A DNA stretch of 34,106 bases from Parcubacteria group bacterium (GTDB lineage: Bacteria; Patescibacteriota; Patescibacteriia; Patescibacteriales; GWC2-42-12): assembly GCA_016188785.1 (NCBI GenBank), contig JACPHD010000002.1, forward strand, positions 1 to 34,106, given 5' to 3'. Shown piece after piece: positions 16,458 through 23,851 of this stretch. Position 1 is the stretch's first letter, and every line of letters begins with the position of its first letter. The position numbers and the translations under genes were made by a program. A model generated the notes under the pieces. The model was given only the letters and a program-made list of their open reading frames with translations, had not been told where the DNA came from and ran no database searches.

Positions 16458-17212
16458 AAATTGACGGTTGTAGTTATAAAATTTGGCTAAATGCTGGAAA
16501 CTCCGGAGTAAAAAATGTACTCGTCTGAAAAATGGCAGTGAAAATCATTTTTTGTATCCCGCCATTCGGGATGCCGGACAATCAGCAGGAAAGACTCTTA
16601 AAAAATATTATGAGCAATCAAAATTGGTTAAATAAGATTCCATTAGAATGGGGGCATTATTTATCAGGATTTACTGATGGAGAAGGCAGTTTTAATGTTT
16701 CTCTTCGCAGAAGAGAAGATCATCTAATGAAGTGGCAAGTTGTCCTGGCCTTTAATGTTTCCCAAAAAGAATCTTATATACTTTCGCAGCTTAAAAAGCA
16801 TTTAGGTTGTGGAAGAATCCAACAAAGACAAGACGGATTGTTTATGTATGTTTGTTCTAATCCCTTGTCGATTCAAGAACGAGTTATTCCGTTTTTTCGG
16901 AAATTTAATTTTCGTTCTCAACAAAAAAAGAAAAATTTTTCTATTTTTTGCCAGATTGCCGAAAAGATATTCAGAAAAGAACATCTAACTTCTCAAGGCT
17001 TGGCGGAAATTGTCAAACTAAGAGAAAGTTTAAATGAAGGCAGGGGTAGGAAAAGAAAATACGAACAGAGTGATTTTCAAAAATCACAAGAAGAGTATCC
17101 TCAGAGACTATATGCCAAACCGCGAAAATTCAGAAGAGAATTTTTCACGGATGATATAGTCCGATCTCATGGGCAACTATGAGGATCCCGAGAGTGGGTG
17201 ATAACGTGAATG
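16458..17212 (+). ncRNA. Group I intron 1 of 23S (site L1917)
   Basis: The 5' exon ends TAACTAT (16451-16457) and the 3' exon resumes AATCGTCCTAAGG at 17213, matching insertion after E. coli U1917. The intron's GTAGTTA (within 16465-16480) pairs with TAACTAT through a terminal U-G wobble, the required P1 feature. The intron ends with G. Core elements: P (AATGCTGGAAAC) and Q (AATCAGCAGGAAAG) pair GCTG/CAGC as P4; R is CAGAGACTATATGCC near 17104; S is GATATAGTCC near 17153. The endonuclease gene lies between Q and R. Bacterial 23S introns at 1917 are known, for example in Coxiella. Confidence 0.9.
16610..17182 (+). CDS. LAGLIDADG homing endonuclease of intron 1
   Basis: Starting at ATG 16610 (MSNQNWLNKIPLEWGHYLSG) the protein has 190 residues. 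An upstream in-frame ATG at 16532 would have to be translated through the Q core element. A single LAGLIDADG motif is visible, LSGFTDGEGSF, so it likely acts as a homodimer (LAGLIDADG_1 type). It would cut intronless 23S alleles at the insertion site and so spread the intron. The C-terminus (QRLYAKPRKF to TDDIVRSHGQL) is encoded by the intron's own R and S elements, a common economy. Intact frame, so possibly active. Confidence 0.88.
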   Translation: MSNQNWLNKIPLEWGHYLSGFTDGEGSFNVSLRRREDHLMKWQVVLAFNVSQKESYILSQLKKHLGCGRIQQRQDGLFMYVCSNPLSIQERVIPFFRKFNFRSQQKKKNFSIFCQIAEKIFRKEHLTSQGLAEIVKLRESLNEGRGRKRKYEQSDFQKSQEEYPQRLYAKPRKFRREFFTDDIVRSHGQL

Positions 17213-17216
17213 AATC

Positions 17217-17274
<58 letters not shown>

Positions 17275-17732
17275 AACTTGAATACTGTCTCAACGAAGGA
17301 CTCGGTGAAATTGCAAGACGAGTAAAGATGCTCGTTAACCATAGTTGGACGAAAAGACCCCGTGAAGCTTTACTATAACTTGATATTGAGTTAGGGGTAC
17401 GGATGTTCAGTATAGGTGGGAGCCCCGCATTTTGCGGGGCGACAGTGAGATACCACCCTTGCGTGCTTTTAATTCTAACCCAAATCCCGTGAATCCGGGT
17501 TGGGGACAGTATCTGGCGGGTAGTTTGTCTGGGGCGGATGCCTCCCAAAAGGTAACGGAGGCGTTTACAAAGGTTGGCTATCCCGGGATGGAAATCCGGG
17601 AGATAGTGTAAAGGCACAAGCCAGCTTTACTGCAAGACCCGCAAGTCGAGCAGTCGCGAAAGCGGAACTTAGTGATCCGACCGTGCGATATAGGACGGCG
17701 GAAGCTCATCGGATAAAAGCTACTCCGGGGAT

Positions 17733-18654
17733 ACGCTTGTGTCCCTGTCCCGCAGCAATGCGGGACAAAGTACGTGGCTAATAACGGTGAAACCCTTTAT
17801 AAGTCAGAGGTGAATTGTAAAGGGCAATACCGTGGGAAGTTAGAGGGCTTAACATAAAATGTATGAAGTTAAGCAAAAGACAAAAAATGATTATCTATGG
17901 CTTGGTTTTAGGTGATGGTTTTTTGCAAAAAACCGGCTTAAAGAACGCACGTTTGCGCTTGGAGCATTCTGCTAAACAACGTGAATATATGGATTGGATT
18001 TTTCAGTCCCTGTCTAACCTGTTTGAGACAAAACCCAAACCATTGAGCCGTCAGCATCCAAAGACAAAGCAAATTTATCATTATTATAGGCTGCAGAGCC
18101 ATTCTTCGCCTGTGTTTGGTAAATTGCGGCGACAATTTTATTATGATAATCAAAAAATTATTCCGGAAAACATCAATAAATTATTATCAAGCAGATTAAC
18201 TTTAGCGGTTTGGTATATGGATGACGGCTATTATTACCGGCGTGATAAGTCAGCTCATATTTACTTATCGCGGCTTGATCATTTTAGCCGACAAAGATTA
18301 TTGAAATGCCTAAAAGATAATTTTAGCTTATTGGCTAAAATTTACTGCCGGCCTGATAGACGGGCCTGCCAGTTGAATTTTAGCGGTCCAAATAAGGACA
18401 AATTGTTTGAGTTAGTGCGTCCTTATATGATACCGATGTTTAATTATAAATTACCCTCTAACCCCGTATCGACTAAGAGCGAGAAATAATGGAAGCTGTC
18501 AGCTTCATTACTGACAGGCGTTAAGAGCTCAAGATGCCGGTCAATTACACCGGCATAATATGCCGCGCCCCCGCATAATGCGGGGTGAAGATATAGTCAG
18601 TGCTTAAGGTAACTTAAGAAGTAGCCCTGTAATACTGCGGGGCGAAATTAAATG
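17733..18654 (+). ncRNA. Group I intron 2 of 23S (site L2449)
   Basis: The 5' exon ends ACTCCGGGGAT (17732) and the 3' exon starts AACAGGCTAG (18655). This corresponds to insertion after E. coli U2449 in the peptidyl transferase centre. P1: exon GGGGAT with intron GTCCCT (about 17741-17746), with a U-G pair at the splice site. P is AACGGTGAAACCC, Q is CAATACCGTGGGAAG, R is CGTATCGACTAAG, S is GAAGATATAGTCAG (about 18586). The intron ends with G (18654). The P and Q words are shared with introns 3 and 4, so these three are one lineage. Confidence 0.9.
17863..18489 (+). CDS. LAGLIDADG homing endonuclease of intron 2 (two-motif)
   Basis: A 208-residue protein, intact from ATG 17863. The first motif is IYGLVLGDGFL (near residue 11) and the second LAVWYMDDGYY (near residue 114), so it is a single-chain LAGLIDADG_2-type enzyme with two half-sites. 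The gene sits after Q and its last codons (SNPVSTKSEK) overlap the R element. Expected to cut 23S DNA around the peptidyl transferase loop in intronless copies. Related to the broken gene in intron 3 (both share PENINKLL/PNDINKLL and YMDDGY). Confidence 0.9.
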   Translation: MKLSKRQKMIIYGLVLGDGFLQKTGLKNARLRLEHSAKQREYMDWIFQSLSNLFETKPKPLSRQHPKTKQIYHYYRLQSHSSPVFGKLRRQFYYDNQKIIPENINKLLSSRLTLAVWYMDDGYYYRRDKSAHIYLSRLDHFSRQRLLKCLKDNFSLLAKIYCRPDRRACQLNFSGPNKDKLFELVRPYMIPMFNYKLPSNPVSTKSEK

Positions 18655-18716
18655 AACAGGCTAGTCACGCCCAAGCGTCCACAGCGACGGCGTGGTTCGG
18701 CACCTCGATGTCGGCT

Positions 18717-19570
18717 CGTGTAAGGGTCGAGTTATTGAGTAATCGATAACATGTAAATTGGCTAATAACGGTGAAACCCTATTGATGAAACCCAGAAACA
18801 ATAGGGCAATACCGTGGGAAGTTGATTAATTTATATTGTTTATGGTTTTAACTCAAAGACAAATTAATATCATAATAGGATTAATATTGGGGGATGGCGG
18901 ATTAGAAAAAAATGGCAACAATGTTCGCTTAAGAGTGGAGCATGGATTCAGTCAGAAAAAAATATTTAATGTGGTTGTACGGCGAATTAAAAAACATAAT
19001 AAGCCGTCCGCCCCGCATAGTTTCCAGCCGAAGCTCTAAAAGCGGTAAAATTTATTCCAGATGGCATTTTTCAACCCTATCCTTAAAATGTTTAAACTCC
19101 TATTATCATAAGTTTTATCAGAAGGCTAAAAAAGTAGTTCCTAATGATATAAATAAACTATTAATATCGCCTTTGAGTTTAGCGATTTGGTACATGGATG
19201 ATGGTTATCGGCGCAATGATTGCAGAGCGTTGCGCATTAGTAGCGATTCATTTAACTATAATGAACAAATTAAACTCACTAGTTGTTTAAATAGTAACTT
19301 TACTATTAATTGCAAGTTGCATAAAAAAGCCGGCGCTTGGAATATATACATACCGGTTAAAAGTTCTGATAGTTTTTGTACTCTAGTCAAACCATATATC
19401 ATACCATCAATGCGATATAAATTAATTTAACCCCGTATCGACTGATTCCGCAAGGATGAGATGGAAGGTACCTGATAATCAGGAAATAAACTTCCATCAT
19501 ATGCCAACCCCTGTTAATTTTAATGGGGTGAAGATATAGTCAGTGCCATTAGTAATAATGGAATAATATG
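18717..19570 (+). ncRNA. Group I intron 3 of 23S (about site L2511)
   Basis: The 5' exon ends GATGTCGGCT (18716) and the 3' exon resumes CGTCGCATCCTGGGGG (19571). Intron GGTCGAG (18725-18735) pairs with exon GTCGGCT, giving U-G at the splice site and setting the site after E. coli U2511. The intron ends with G. P is AACGGTGAAACCC, Q is CAATACCGTGGGAAG, R is CGTATCGACTGATT, S is GAAGATATAGTCAG. It shares the downstream GGTACCTGATAATCAGG block with intron 4. The preceding exon is only 62 nt. Confidence 0.88.
18842..19430 (+). pseudogene. LAGLIDADG homing endonuclease of intron 3, one frameshift
   Basis: The ATG at 18842 gives MVLTQRQINIIIGLILGDGG (first motif), and the frame is lost at a run of seven A (about 18957-18963). 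The next frame continues KKYLMWLYGELKNIISRPPR through LAIWYMDDGYR (second motif) to a stop at 19428-19430. Six A in the run would give an uninterrupted protein of about 196 residues, similar to the intron 2 enzyme. The stop lies just before the R element. It is a pseudogene, a product of polymerase slippage at A7, or a homopolymer sequencing error. Confidence 0.85.
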
Positions 19571-19595
19571 CGTCGCATCCTGGGGGTGGAGAAGC

Positions 19596-19648
<53 letters not shown>

Positions 19649-19715
19649 CCGTCGTAAGACAGGTCGGTCTCCTATCTACTATGGTCGCGGAAACTTGAGA
19701 AGGACACTCTTTAGT

Positions 19716-20494
19716 AGACCCTGACGGGTTATGCTACTTGCGGGAGTAATCCCGCATGACAATACGGCTAATAACGGTGGAAGCTTTAAAATATTTATGG
19801 TACAATATATGTGAGGACCATAAATATTAAGTCAATACCGTGGGAAGTCGATCAAATATTACAAATAAAACATCCGAACTCGCCTATATTGCTGGTTTTT
19901 TAGACGGCGATGGCAGTTTGATGCTGCAAATAAAAAAACGAAGCGACTCCAAGCGAGGCTGGCGTTTCATGGCTACAATCTGTTTATATCAAGACAGTCG
20001 ACACGATAAGCCGCTTTATTGGATGAAGAGTCGTTTAGGTATCGGTTATATATCAAAGAGAAATGATAATATTACAGAACTACGCATTAACGGATACAAG
20101 CAATGCAATAAAATATTGCGTAAATTGTATCCGTTTATAAAGTTTAAGCAGCCACAGATTAAATCATTGCTTAAGGCGATTGATATATTAATCAGGAAGC
20201 CGCTAGATAAGCTGACTCGCGGTGACCGGAAAAAATTATTATTTTGTATAATGACCATACAAAATTTTAATTATCAATCTCCGAGAAAAAGATCGATTGA
20301 GCAACTTAAAAAAATATTTGATTTGACCCCGTAACGACTGATTTACTCCCGAATTTTCGGGAAAATGAGATAGAAGGTACCTGATAATCAGGATTTAAAC
20401 TTCTATCATATGCCGTCACCCTACCCCGCTTATAATTTAAGCGGGCAAGAGGGTGAAGATATAGTCTATGCATCTAGTGATAGATGATAACATG
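19716..20494 (+). ncRNA. Group I intron 4 of 23S, inside the sarcin-ricin loop (about L2656)
   Basis: The 5' exon ends CTCTTTAGT (19715) and the 3' exon resumes ACGAGAGGACC (20495). Joined, they recreate the sarcin-ricin sequence AGTACGAGAGGACC, so the intron lies between the equivalents of U2656 and A2657. It ends with G. P is AACGGTGGAAGC, Q is CAATACCGTGGGAAG, R is CGTAACGACTGATT, S is GAAGATATAGTC. The P1 I can find is short (GCTA with TAGT, including U-G). The 3' part is very like intron 3. Confidence 0.85.
19840..20334 (+). CDS. LAGLIDADG homing endonuclease of intron 4
   Basis: The open frame encodes 164 residues with one motif, LAYIAGFLDGDGSL, at residues 14-27; this suggests an I-CreI-like homodimer. 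No ATG is available. The only sensible start is a GTG at 19840 that lies inside the conserved Q element. The stop TAA (20332-20334) lies inside the R element (CCCCGTAACGACTG). The gene therefore exactly fills the space between two catalytic core parts. Predicted target: the sarcin-ricin loop DNA of intronless 23S genes. Confidence 0.85.
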   Translation: MGSRSNITNKTSELAYIAGFLDGDGSLMLQIKKRSDSKRGWRFMATICLYQDSRHDKPLYWMKSRLGIGYISKRNDNITELRINGYKQCNKILRKLYPFIKFKQPQIKSLLKAIDILIRKPLDKLTRGDRKKLLFCIMTIQNFNYQSPRKRSIEQLKKIFDLTP

Positions 20495-21244: not shown

Positions 21245-21325
21245 GAACCGCGAGTCTGATATTCGGCAGGCGCTGAAATATCAGGTAAGCCCAAACCACC
21301 ATTTAATTTAAGGAGGATGACGCTA

Positions 21326-21838
21326 ATGGAAAAGACATTAACCCCATCTGTAAAAGAACCTACTGAACCGCAGGCCGGAAAGCTACACGACCGGATTTTA
21401 TCGGCGGCTCGCAAATCTGGAATTGACTCGGGTCAATTCCAGGATGCGCTGGCCTACCCTGGCACGGAGCTGGAGGACAATATGGTCGCTCTGCTCGTCC
21501 GGTTCGGTAAGAAAGTCCGCGGTATCATCACGCCGGTCCGCGCCCAAGACACCGGCCTCGTTCCCAACGGTTGGACGATCAAGAGTGATAATTTGGAAGG
21601 CGACATTAGTCTCGCTAACTTGGATTATTCCTCTTGCCCGGTTCGGGAAGGCGAGAAGTATGTCGGTGGCGACACGATGTTTGAACGAGCAGGTAACGCT
21701 TACGGCAGTCTGGGTTTCGCGGCCGCATTGCTTAAAGCGCAGGATGAGGGGAAGGAAATTTTCCCGGTTGAGTCGCGCGGCAAGCATTATTTTATTATGC
21801 CGCGAACAATTTTGATCGTTGATGTCCGTCTCCGCTAG
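21326..21838 (+). CDS. DGR target (variable) protein, currently stopped inside its variable repeat
   Basis: AAGGAGG ends 9 bases before the ATG at 21326; an ATG at 21317 touches it and is too close. The present product is 170 residues with no signal peptide. Its middle (NGWTIKSDNLEGDISLANLD, then KYVGGDTMFERA) looks like known CPR DGR targets, and GKHYFIMPRTILIVD leads into the variable repeat. A TAG at 21836-21838 stops it. Reading through, the frame continues VACFDWNGRRWVLRFHWLGS to a TAG at 21938-21940, for 204 residues. The template repeat has AAG (Lys) where VR has TAG, so the stop arose by adenine mutagenesis. The C-terminus probably forms a C-type-lectin-like ligand-binding fold; the ligand is unknown. 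Confidence 0.85.
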   Translation: MEKTLTPSVKEPTEPQAGKLHDRILSAARKSGIDSGQFQDALAYPGTELEDNMVALLVRFGKKVRGIITPVRAQDTGLVPNGWTIKSDNLEGDISLANLDYSSCPVREGEKYVGGDTMFERAGNAYGSLGFAAALLKAQDEGKEIFPVESRGKHYFIMPRTILIVDVRLR

Positions 21839-21934
21839 GTGGCCTGCTTCGACTGGAATGGCAGGCGGTGGGTACTCCGCTTCCATTGGCTCGGCAGCTT
21901 CTTCGACGGCCTTGATCGCTTCGTTCGTCCCCGC
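21806..21934 (+). repeat. DGR variable repeat (VR)
   Basis: 129 bases align without gaps to TR at 22276-22404 (offset 470). There are 20 differences, and all fall on adenines of TR (to G, C or T); no C, G or T of TR is changed. The 3' end TTCGTTCGTCCCCGC is identical and is the likely initiation of mutagenic homology. Confidence 0.95.
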
Positions 21935-21992
21935 GAGTAGCTCTTGGGCGCTGGGCGGCTTAGTCCTTGACCCCTTGGCGCTCCGTATTTTC

Positions 21993-22275: not shown

Positions 22276-22404
22276 ACAATTTTGATCGATGATGACCGTA
22301 ACCGCAAGGTGGCCTACTTCAACTGGAATGGCAAGCGGTGGGTACTCAACTTCAATTGGCTCGACAACAACTTCAACGACAATGATCGATTCGTTCGTCC
22401 CCGC
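22276..22404 (+). repeat. DGR template repeat (TR)
   Basis: TR would translate to VAYFNWNGKRWVLNFNWLDN and onward, NNFNDNDRFVRPR. Most adenines sit in AAC/AAT codons, which cannot mutate to stops by adenine changes. Two AAG codons can, and one has become TAG in VR. TR's last base coincides with the end of the avd stop codon on the other strand. Confidence 0.95.
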
Positions 22405-22763
22405 TAGTATCTTCTTACTCCTCCCGTAATCGGAGGAGTTTCTTTTATTAGCTGTCTTTGCCAGCCGCCCAGCATTTTGCCTATTTCAACTAGAGGCGCG
22501 GACAGTTCGGCGAATTTTTTGTTGTCAATCGCTTTAAGCTCCCAAGCGATTTGGATAAAAAATTTTAGCAAATCTAATTTTAATGAAGCCTTTTTAATAA
22601 TTACCGCCTTATTTTCTTTGGCGGCGAAGCCGGCCGTGAAGATAAGTTCCGCCAGCTCAATAAATAATAAATTAATTTTTTCGCTCAAAGAGTAGCGAGT
22701 TAACCTTTGGATGTGCGGCAGAATGTTATGCCATAATTTGTAAGCTTCGGCGGTCTTTTGCAA
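22404..22763 (-). CDS. avd: DGR accessory variability determinant (Avd), four-helix bundle
   Basis: A 119-residue helical protein: QKTAEAYKLWHNILPHIQRL, then KLDLLKFFIQIAWELKAIDN and LVEIGKMLGGWQRQL. These are hallmark segments of Avd, which forms a pentameric ring with the DGR reverse transcriptase and is needed for template-primed cDNA synthesis. The frame as given starts at TTG 22763, but Avd proteins normally begin a few residues earlier with NLPVLQKT. Here NANLPV is encoded in frame just upstream without a start codon. An ATG at 22821 would supply it if the intervening C-run (G-run on plus) had 10 or 13 bases rather than 11. It ends convergently with TR. Confidence 0.88.
   Translation of the reverse strand: MQKTAEAYKLWHNILPHIQRLTRYSLSEKINLLFIELAELIFTAGFAAKENKAVIIKKASLKLDLLKFFIQIAWELKAIDNKKFAELSAPLVEIGKMLGGWQRQLIKETPPITGGVRRY
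22417..22439 (+). terminator. Terminator after TR
   Basis: ACTCCTCC (22417-22424) pairs with GGAGGAGT (22432-22439), followed by a T-rich run. It lies inside the 3' end of avd on the opposite strand. Confidence 0.65.
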
Positions 22764-22795
22764 GACCGGTAAATTAGCATTGCTAAAATTCCGTT

Positions 22796-22806
22796 GGGGG
22801 GGGGGG
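22796..22806. repeat. Homopolymeric G11 tract between avd and RT starts
   Basis: Eleven consecutive Gs in an AT-rich region. It lies between the avd ATG (22821, minus) and the avd body, and 22 bases before the RT ATG. With 11 C on the avd strand the reading is MPLSKPPPPTEF then stop; with 10 or 13 it enters the Avd frame. Confidence 0.85.
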
Positions 22807-22828
22807 CTTGCTTAAAGGCATTATTATT

Positions 22829-23851
22829 ATGAAAATTCAGCTGGTTCATAAATTTGAAGATATAATTAGTGTTGAAAATTTACTCGCGGCCTGGCGCGAG
22901 TTTATTCGCGGCAAAAGAAACAGGCGGGATGTTCAAGAATTTTTGCTGAACTTAATGGATAATATTTTTGACCTGCATTATTACCTAAAAAGCTTAACAT
23001 ACCGGCACGGCGGTTATCAAGCCTTTAAAATTAATGACCCTAAGCCCAGAGATATTCATAAGGCCAGCGTGCGTGACCGATTATTGCATCATGCGATTTA
23101 CCGGATTCTATATCCGTTTTTTGATAAAACATTTATCGCCGACTCATATTCCTGCCGGATAAATAAAGGCACGCATAAAGCAGTTAATAAGTTTCTCCAG
23201 TATGCCTATATAGTGAGTAAAAACAATACTAAAACTTGCTGGGCGCTAAAAGGCGATATCAGAAAATTTTTTGCCAATATTGACCATGACATATTGATTG
23301 GCAGATTAAGAGAGTATATTCAGGATGAAAAGATTATTTGGCTTTTAAAAAATGTGATCGGCAGTTTCTCGCCCGGACTGCCTTTAGGCAACCTAACTTC
23401 GCAGTTGTTCGTTAATATTTACCTGAATAAGTTTGATCAATTTATTAAGCACAAGTTAAAAGCCAAGTATTATATCCGCTATGCTGATGATTTTGTAATT
23501 TTCTCGGAAAATAAAGAGTGGCTGGAAAATTTAATTGAACCGATAAAGGAATTTTTGCGCCAAGAACTTAAACTGGAACTGCATCCGAATAAAGTTTTTA
23601 TTAAAACCATTGCTTCGGGCGTTGATTTCCTGGGGATGGTTAATTTTTCCGATTATCGGGTTTTTAGGACTAAAACCAAAAGAAGAATGTTAAAGAAAAT
23701 AAGCGACAGATATGGCGAATCGCAGAATGAAATAATTTCCGAAGAATCTTTTAAGCAAAGTCTGCAGTCGTATTTGGGTATGTTGAAGCATTGCCGAGGG
23801 TATAAAGTGGAGAAAAAGATTGAGGCTATATGTGAGACTCCAGCTTCGTGA
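22829..23851 (+). CDS. DGR reverse transcriptase
   Basis: The ATG at 22829 (MKIQLVHKFEDIISVENLLA) gives 340 residues; a TTG at 22808 is less likely. RT motifs in order: VRDRLLHHAIYRILYPFFD, DSYSCRINKGTHKAVNKF, WALKGDIRKFFANIDHDIL, GLPLGNLTSQLFVNIYLN and the catalytic IRYADDFVIF. LGNLTSQ with YADD places it among DGR/retroplasmid-like bacterial RTs. The thumb ends with YLGMLKHCRGYKVEKKIEAI. The last seven residues (CETPAS region) come from a GC-rich repeat. It copies TR RNA with errors at adenines. Start codons of RT and avd are divergent and 7 bases apart. Confidence 0.95.
   Translation: MKIQLVHKFEDIISVENLLAAWREFIRGKRNRRDVQEFLLNLMDNIFDLHYYLKSLTYRHGGYQAFKINDPKPRDIHKASVRDRLLHHAIYRILYPFFDKTFIADSYSCRINKGTHKAVNKFLQYAYIVSKNNTKTCWALKGDIRKFFANIDHDILIGRLREYIQDEKIIWLLKNVIGSFSPGLPLGNLTSQLFVNIYLNKFDQFIKHKLKAKYYIRYADDFVIFSENKEWLENLIEPIKEFLRQELKLELHPNKVFIKTIASGVDFLGMVNFSDYRVFRTKTKRRMLKKISDRYGESQNEIISEESFKQSLQSYLGMLKHCRGYKVEKKIEAICETPAS

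Follow-up and report, generated by a model that had tools for sequence, protein, structure and literature searches.

Can a short run of a single base decide whether a DGR is armed? We asked this question of a 34,106-nucleotide stretch of DNA from a Parcubacteria group bacterium, referred to here as the window, in which eleven consecutive G residues lie between the avd reading frame and the reverse transcriptase (RT) gene. The window is contig 29 of a 45-contig, 1.007-Mb genome that is 95% complete. An initial annotation, made from the letters of the window, had proposed that this G11 tract may switch avd on and off.

The DGR of the window and its G11 tract

We found that the window carries a complete DGR, with a target gene containing a variable repeat (VR), a template repeat (TR), avd on the minus strand and the RT gene on the plus strand (Table 1). 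The RT is assigned to the group II-like/DGR type by its match to RVT_1, a general RT profile that is not specific to DGRs, together with the Avd adjoining the RT in relatives. The avd product matches Pfam bAvd above the cut-off (E 1.2e-13), which identifies it as the accessory protein Avd, and matches NCBIfam DivGenRetAVD at E 1.3e-17 and 64 bits, below the curated cut-off of 80. As in other DGRs, the differences between TR and VR are directed at adenines: 22 of 137 positions are mismatched and 20 of the 22 are TR adenines, a pattern that points to past activity only. The target gene as assembled ends early. The TAG at 21836-21838 in the VR is AAG, an adenine position, in the TR, and therefore the DGR itself seemingly created the stop codon in its target; past this TAG the target frame would carry on the variable domain. 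Elsewhere, positions 16532-20334 of the window seem to be a ribosomal RNA region and contain ORFs whose motif resembles that of LAGLIDADG homing endonucleases, which makes them candidates for this family.

Table 1. Positions of the DGR parts, the G11 tract and the candidate avd start codons in the window
Feature	Position	Strand	Remark
Target gene	21317..21838	+	frame terminates inside VR at TAG
Variable repeat (VR)	21806..21942	+	aligned to TR
Template repeat (TR)	22276..22412	+	9-base overlap with avd 3' end
avd reading frame	22404..22793	-	bAvd domain approximately 22452-22763; all upstream ATGs out of frame at 11 C
G11 tract (C11 in avd mRNA sense), proposed phase-variation repeat	22796..22806	+	homologous repeats in relatives
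ATG cited in the initial annotation	22819..22821	-	not in the avd frame at 11 C
DGR-type reverse transcriptase (RT)	22829..23851	+	340 aa + stop; RVT_1 E 5e-25
Conserved avd ATG	22847..22849	-	antisense to RT codon His7; start position common to relatives; out of frame at 11 C

The G11 tract is real, occupies the beginning of the avd coding region within a complete DGR, and is the sole G/C run longer than seven in the window. Long G-runs had been called strikingly rare in AT-rich DNA. When the window was shuffled 100 times with its dinucleotides preserved, G11 never appeared, and the whole 1.007-Mb genome holds three G/C runs of at least nine on both strands, G11 included. The flanks of the two other runs, both G10, were checked and neither run adjoins avd or RT.

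In the assembled sequence the Avd domain is not read from any upstream ATG, since ATG 22821 runs into a stop and ATG 22849 lies in another frame. The initial annotation had read minus-strand ATG 22821 as MPLSKPPPP followed by a stop. The out-of-frame stop stands, while the peptide continues for three further residues, so that at 11 C this ATG opens 12 codons, MPLSKPPPPTEF, before the stop. That ATG 22821 joins the Avd frame with one C fewer or two more was stated correctly (the one-fewer length was checked). Minus-strand ATG 22849, which is in frame with avd when the tract is one unit longer, had been overlooked. TTG 22763, inside the Avd domain, might yield a slightly short Avd at any tract length.

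We hypothesized that G11, placed as it is near the start of the avd coding sequence, works as a simple-sequence contingency locus in which slipped-strand mispairing would alter the number of C units and thereby move ATG 22849 or ATG 22821 in or out of the Avd frame. Slipped-strand phase variation of avd, randomly arming and disarming the DGR, is our best reading of the locus, with a probability of about 0.82.

Repeats at avd starts across Patescibacteria

We compared avd starts across species, with one genome per species, in two samples. The relatives retrieved with the window RT are Patescibacteria MAGs. Sample 1 comprises the best 80 of 108 RT relatives and four more loci, picked regardless of the tract; these four came from a set of 15, of which the other 11 (L005 to L015), partial or weaker RT matches, were excluded. 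Judged by the Avd profile, avd is antisense to RT and adjoins it in 79 of these 84 loci (best 80 of 108 relatives plus four). The five loci with no Avd match are L037, L057, L062, L069 and L090; in four of them the contig breaks off at the tract or where RT starts. Sample 2 came from a Pfam bAvd search of 379 genomes across the phylum, in which 177 genomes matched, 106 above the cut-off; 148 loci drawn among the matches listed were read, leaving out G156:C10 (internal stops) and the window's own match. Avd matches with E above 1e-5 or starting past HMM position 20 were excluded from the repeat count, 4 of 231 avd records were removed as more than 95% identical, and L022, L050 and L206 were removed for N near the tract. 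With near-copies removed, samples 1 and 2 together comprised 184 antisense avd genes that adjoin an RT and whose start is readable.

We found a simple sequence repeat at the 5' end of 125 of these 184 genes, where sample 1 represents the best 80 of 108 relatives plus four and sample 2 was drawn among the matches listed. The frequency is 66/72 in sample 1 (best 80 of 108 relatives plus four) and 59/112 in sample 2, and with stricter repeat limits 110 of the 184 genes still carry a repeat. Among the sample-2 genomes with an RT-adjacent antisense avd, 48 of 80 have at least one repeat-bearing copy, as do 34 of 53 family codes. By comparison, a repeat occurs within the first 110 bases of 6 of 968 other ORFs (at least 100 aa) in the sampled loci, and repeat density falls from 6.6 per kb in avd start windows to 0.069 per kb in the remainder of these loci (approximately 1 Mb). 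Repeat tracts in the avd 5' coding region are thus far beyond chance, as in contingency loci.

The units among the 125 repeats are C (102), CT/TC (13), CA (7), GA (2) and AGGAC (1), with C tracts ranging from C7 to C14 across species, and repeat number differs between aligned relatives. In most sample-1 loci a G-run lies just 5' of RT; (GA)n or (GT)n replaces it in others. Since the unit varies, it is the repeat itself that recurs and not its sequence, and a poly-proline or G-specific RNA role was rejected on account of the CT, CA, GA and AGGAC units. The pentanucleotide repeat, (AGGAC)7, is found at the avd start of L110, and units of this kind are familiar from other phase-variable genes. 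One genome, G190, contains six antisense avd/RT pairs (L119, L130, L133, L138, L149 and L179). Five of these six avd genes have dinucleotide repeats, four being (CA)n with lengths from 12 to 24 bases and the fifth (CT)9, and only one of the five is ON, that is, has an in-frame upstream ATG. L049 has a G10 run at 1294-1303, distant from its avd.

Consensus lengths of G-runs may be off by one, which raises the question whether the tracts are products of homopolymer sequencing or assembly error. Some contigs do break at the tract. Among the best 80 of 108 relatives, 4 have a contig that terminates no more than 60 bases 5' of RT, where 0.35 are expected from other ends (p approximately 5e-4, with the 60-base limit picked after inspecting the data), and none lies within 120 bases 3' of RT in the same 80 loci (best 80 of 108). 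L022, L050 and L093 have a scaffold gap at the tract, and L206 has one nearby. L093 reads G6-N19-G6 where the near-identical L092 reads G9, so that the gap splits the run itself. Two further near-identical pairs have equal lengths (L078/L080, C11; L044/L075, C9), which counts against the phase-variation reading. The contig ends and gaps are hints that would fit mixed tract lengths and also plain trouble with G-runs. However, the repeats occur in 125 loci from many projects and in several units, including three repeat-bearing avd genes (L129, L166 and L238) in G036, a genome assembled as a single contig, and error could change a single ON/OFF call but could not create the repeats. We consider error as the source of the tracts very improbable. 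An error of a single assembly was rejected on the same 125 loci, and C7 to C14, other units and random phase across species therefore exclude an error confined to the window assembly as the origin.

We found that the repeat goes with the antisense avd arrangement. Avd-like genes without an RT in the stretch carry a repeat in 1 of 18 cases, and avd genes with an RT elsewhere in the stretch in 1 of 17 (sample 2) and 3 of 5 (sample 1). As an outgroup we used 87 loci (80 viral contigs and 7 phage records), which after removal of 22 duplicates left 65: 52 with avd on the RT strand, 11 with avd on the opposite strand and 2 without RT. None of the 52 distinct same-strand genes from IMG/VR contigs and phage records has a repeat, unlike the window, while 2 of the 11 opposite-strand genes do, namely (GA)19 and C8, both without an in-frame ATG. 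These two, L247 and L248, are antisense avd genes on IMG/VR contigs filed as viral, and the contigs may be Patescibacteria proviruses or chromosome pieces. No in-frame ATG lies within 200 bases in 16 of the 52 same-strand genes, which often have GTG or TTG instead, and ATG-only counts are therefore too strict in these phages.

In the majority of loci avd and RT diverge from adjoining starts, and therefore position alone cannot assign the tract to one gene. The initial annotation had suggested that RT promoter spacing may change with tract length. More broadly, the tract could act on the plus strand, as RT promoter, 5' leader or TR-RNA, with the avd frame incidental, and its location 15-40 bases 5' of the RT start in most loci would suit such a role. 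Against this, where approximately 130-1100 bases separate avd from RT (e.g., L016, L027, L032, L034, L041, L044, L067 and L075), the tract is found with the 5' end of avd; L016, the closest relative among the best 80 of 108, retains C11 and the bases directly around it, although the sequence upstream is replaced. RT promoter spacing as a conserved role was rejected on this ground, as the tract follows avd when the genes separate, and changed promoter spacing is accordingly not favoured. Furthermore, the distance from the end of the repeat to the Avd domain is 8-50 bases, with a median of 12.5, and the C, CT, CA, GA and AGGAC units misfit sequence-specific RNA roles. In the window, an AAAGG sits between the tract and the RT ATG, so tract length leaves the AAAGG-RT spacing unchanged. 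We regard a plus-strand role as improbable.

Frame states, inheritance and selection

A switch of the kind proposed requires that a change of one unit moves avd in or out of frame, and this is what we found. As assembled, 34 of the 125 repeat-bearing avd genes are ON, 90 are OFF and become ON at plus or minus one unit, and a single gene (L154) lacks an ATG whichever of the three phases is read. Hence 124 of 125 are ON or one unit away, and both states occur, with avd intact when OFF, in a comparison made across species and not strains. No ATG, GTG or TTG precedes the domain in 67 of the 91 repeat loci lacking an upstream ATG; 21 OFF loci have a GTG or TTG in the interval from tract to domain, and 3 have one upstream.

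Repeat-free avd genes have an in-frame ATG in 57 of 59 cases, and in their two wrong frames in 5/59 and 11/59. With wrong-frame ATGs so few, the one-unit distance from ON is not due to chance. In 104 loci the ATG is available at one phase only; it is antisense to an in-frame RT His codon in 79 of these and at the same HMM position in 58. The avd start is therefore a fixed site, and since this start codon is antisense to a conserved RT His codon, both genes constrain each other's 5' ends. By phase, the single-phase loci divide into 24 (ON), 36 and 44. ON is rarer than random phase predicts, both here (24/104 versus 34.7) and among all repeat loci (34/125 versus 48.0, sd 5.2), possibly due to a cost of the ON state or to assembly bias.

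These counts also bear on whether the frame matters at all. During RNA synthesis, slippage on C-runs of 9-11 is possible in principle, and transcriptional slippage or ribosomal frameshifting at the tract would give some Avd at every length, a low constant dose with no heritable switch. Random phase and scarce ON states are also expected if the frame barely matters. However, polymerase slippage would hardly read through the two- and five-base units at the same site, the near-even phases are unlike a programmed -1 or +1 frameshift, and the repeat-free genes, all but two, keep a plain in-frame ATG. We consider this explanation unlikely.

An RT tree was built with FastTree from the 163 of 184 records with enough RT, one row per locus. 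Presence of the tract changes 16 times on this tree versus 38.1 when shuffled, and the repeat unit 9 times versus 22.3, which indicates that both are inherited. The ON/OFF state changes 27 times versus a shuffled mean of 27.6, and is random. Thus, the state is forgotten between sampled species and the tract is kept.

Since 91 of 125 repeat-bearing avd genes have no in-frame upstream ATG as assembled, avd might be a decaying pseudogene in many Patescibacteria DGRs. The OFF genes do not behave as such: their domain is intact and under purifying selection (median dN/dS 0.137 over 58 OFF/OFF pairs), stops in the first 100 codons are few (1 OFF, 2 ON and 1 repeat-free row), and all but one are ON or a single unit from ON. 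Pairs of OFF and repeat-free genes (n=17) have a median dN/dS of 0.128, and the avd genes of the window and L016, both C11 and OFF, have a dN/dS of 0.017 at dS 0.59. Pseudogene decay is rejected on the purifying selection in OFF avd genes, and we give it hardly any weight. Adenine-biased TR/VR pairs are present in 76/91 OFF, 27/34 ON and 51/59 repeat-free loci, and therefore elements now OFF were once active.

A proposed random switch on a targeted mutator

The proposal that the tract makes avd phase-variable is supported, as it passed all comparative tests that were run. In the proposed mechanism, cells whose tract is out of frame would retain TR, RT and VR and would leave the target undiversified, and revertants would diversify it. 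Avd is required in BPP-1 mutagenic homing, so out-of-frame cells should not diversify the target; a 2026 study reports that BPP-1 avd nonsense mutants are inactive in E. coli (PMC12875486). Because RT and TR are untouched, the switch would disarm mutagenesis without losing it. A population would be a mix of mutator and non-mutator cells, with a random switch set over a targeted hypermutator. We infer slippage in living cells, expression from ATG 22849 or ATG 22821, a need for Avd in Patescibacteria and a benefit of switching, and tract length would presumably vary inside one strain. Extended to the phylum, it seems likely that DGRs across Patescibacteria are second-order contingency systems, in which slippage of simple sequence repeats randomly toggles Avd, a clone goes back and forth between hypermutating its target and fixing a good variant of it, and selection built and rebuilt the switch with at least four repeat units.

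The avd tracts resemble the contingency loci of Neisseria, Haemophilus, Campylobacter and Helicobacter in several respects: the repeat is in the 5' coding end, the length of its unit is not divisible by three, the gene is a single unit away from ON, the frame downstream is conserved and the state is random between relatives. Known contingency loci switch surface structures, restriction-modification and similar functions, whereas in the present loci switching would act on the gene for the accessory factor of a targeted mutator, and the hosts are Patescibacteria. Compared with BPP-1-type DGRs (avd-TR-brt), the window shares the RT, a bAvd family protein and TR/VR with adenine-directed differences, but its avd is antisense to TR and RT, starts inside the RT gene and carries a repeat. 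Roux et al. 2021 describe a DGR clade 2 that is restricted to Patescibacteria, the same host group as the window (PMC8144416). The window RT probably belongs to this clade.

The words avd, homopolymer and frameshift are absent from the main text of PMC8144416. Its authors devised a test of whether DGR targets alternate between diversification and purifying selection. Such alternation is what a random Avd switch would give. PMC3521204 lists contingency loci and DGRs as two distinct ways of generating diversity and describes DGRs whose RT genes are frameshifted. PMC12926258 contains terms for both phenomena in unrelated places, and PMC9948471, with PacBio CCS reads including Patescibacteria and a DGR in one bin of a table, is a possible data source. 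In the open PMC literature, we found no publication on a phase-variable DGR, and nothing relevant on phase variation in Patescibacteria.

The regulation of DGRs in the wild has been called an exciting frontier by the 2026 study (PMC12875486). If our reading is true, a heritable random switch of Avd would be a direct answer to how a useful DGR variant is kept together with the capacity for new ones. The share of reads with an ON length should then track VR diversity, which is testable from reads alone. This would be, as far as found in the open PMC literature, the first control mechanism proposed for the DGRs of the large uncultivated phylum Patescibacteria, and an instance of a mutator, not a surface structure, under phase variation.
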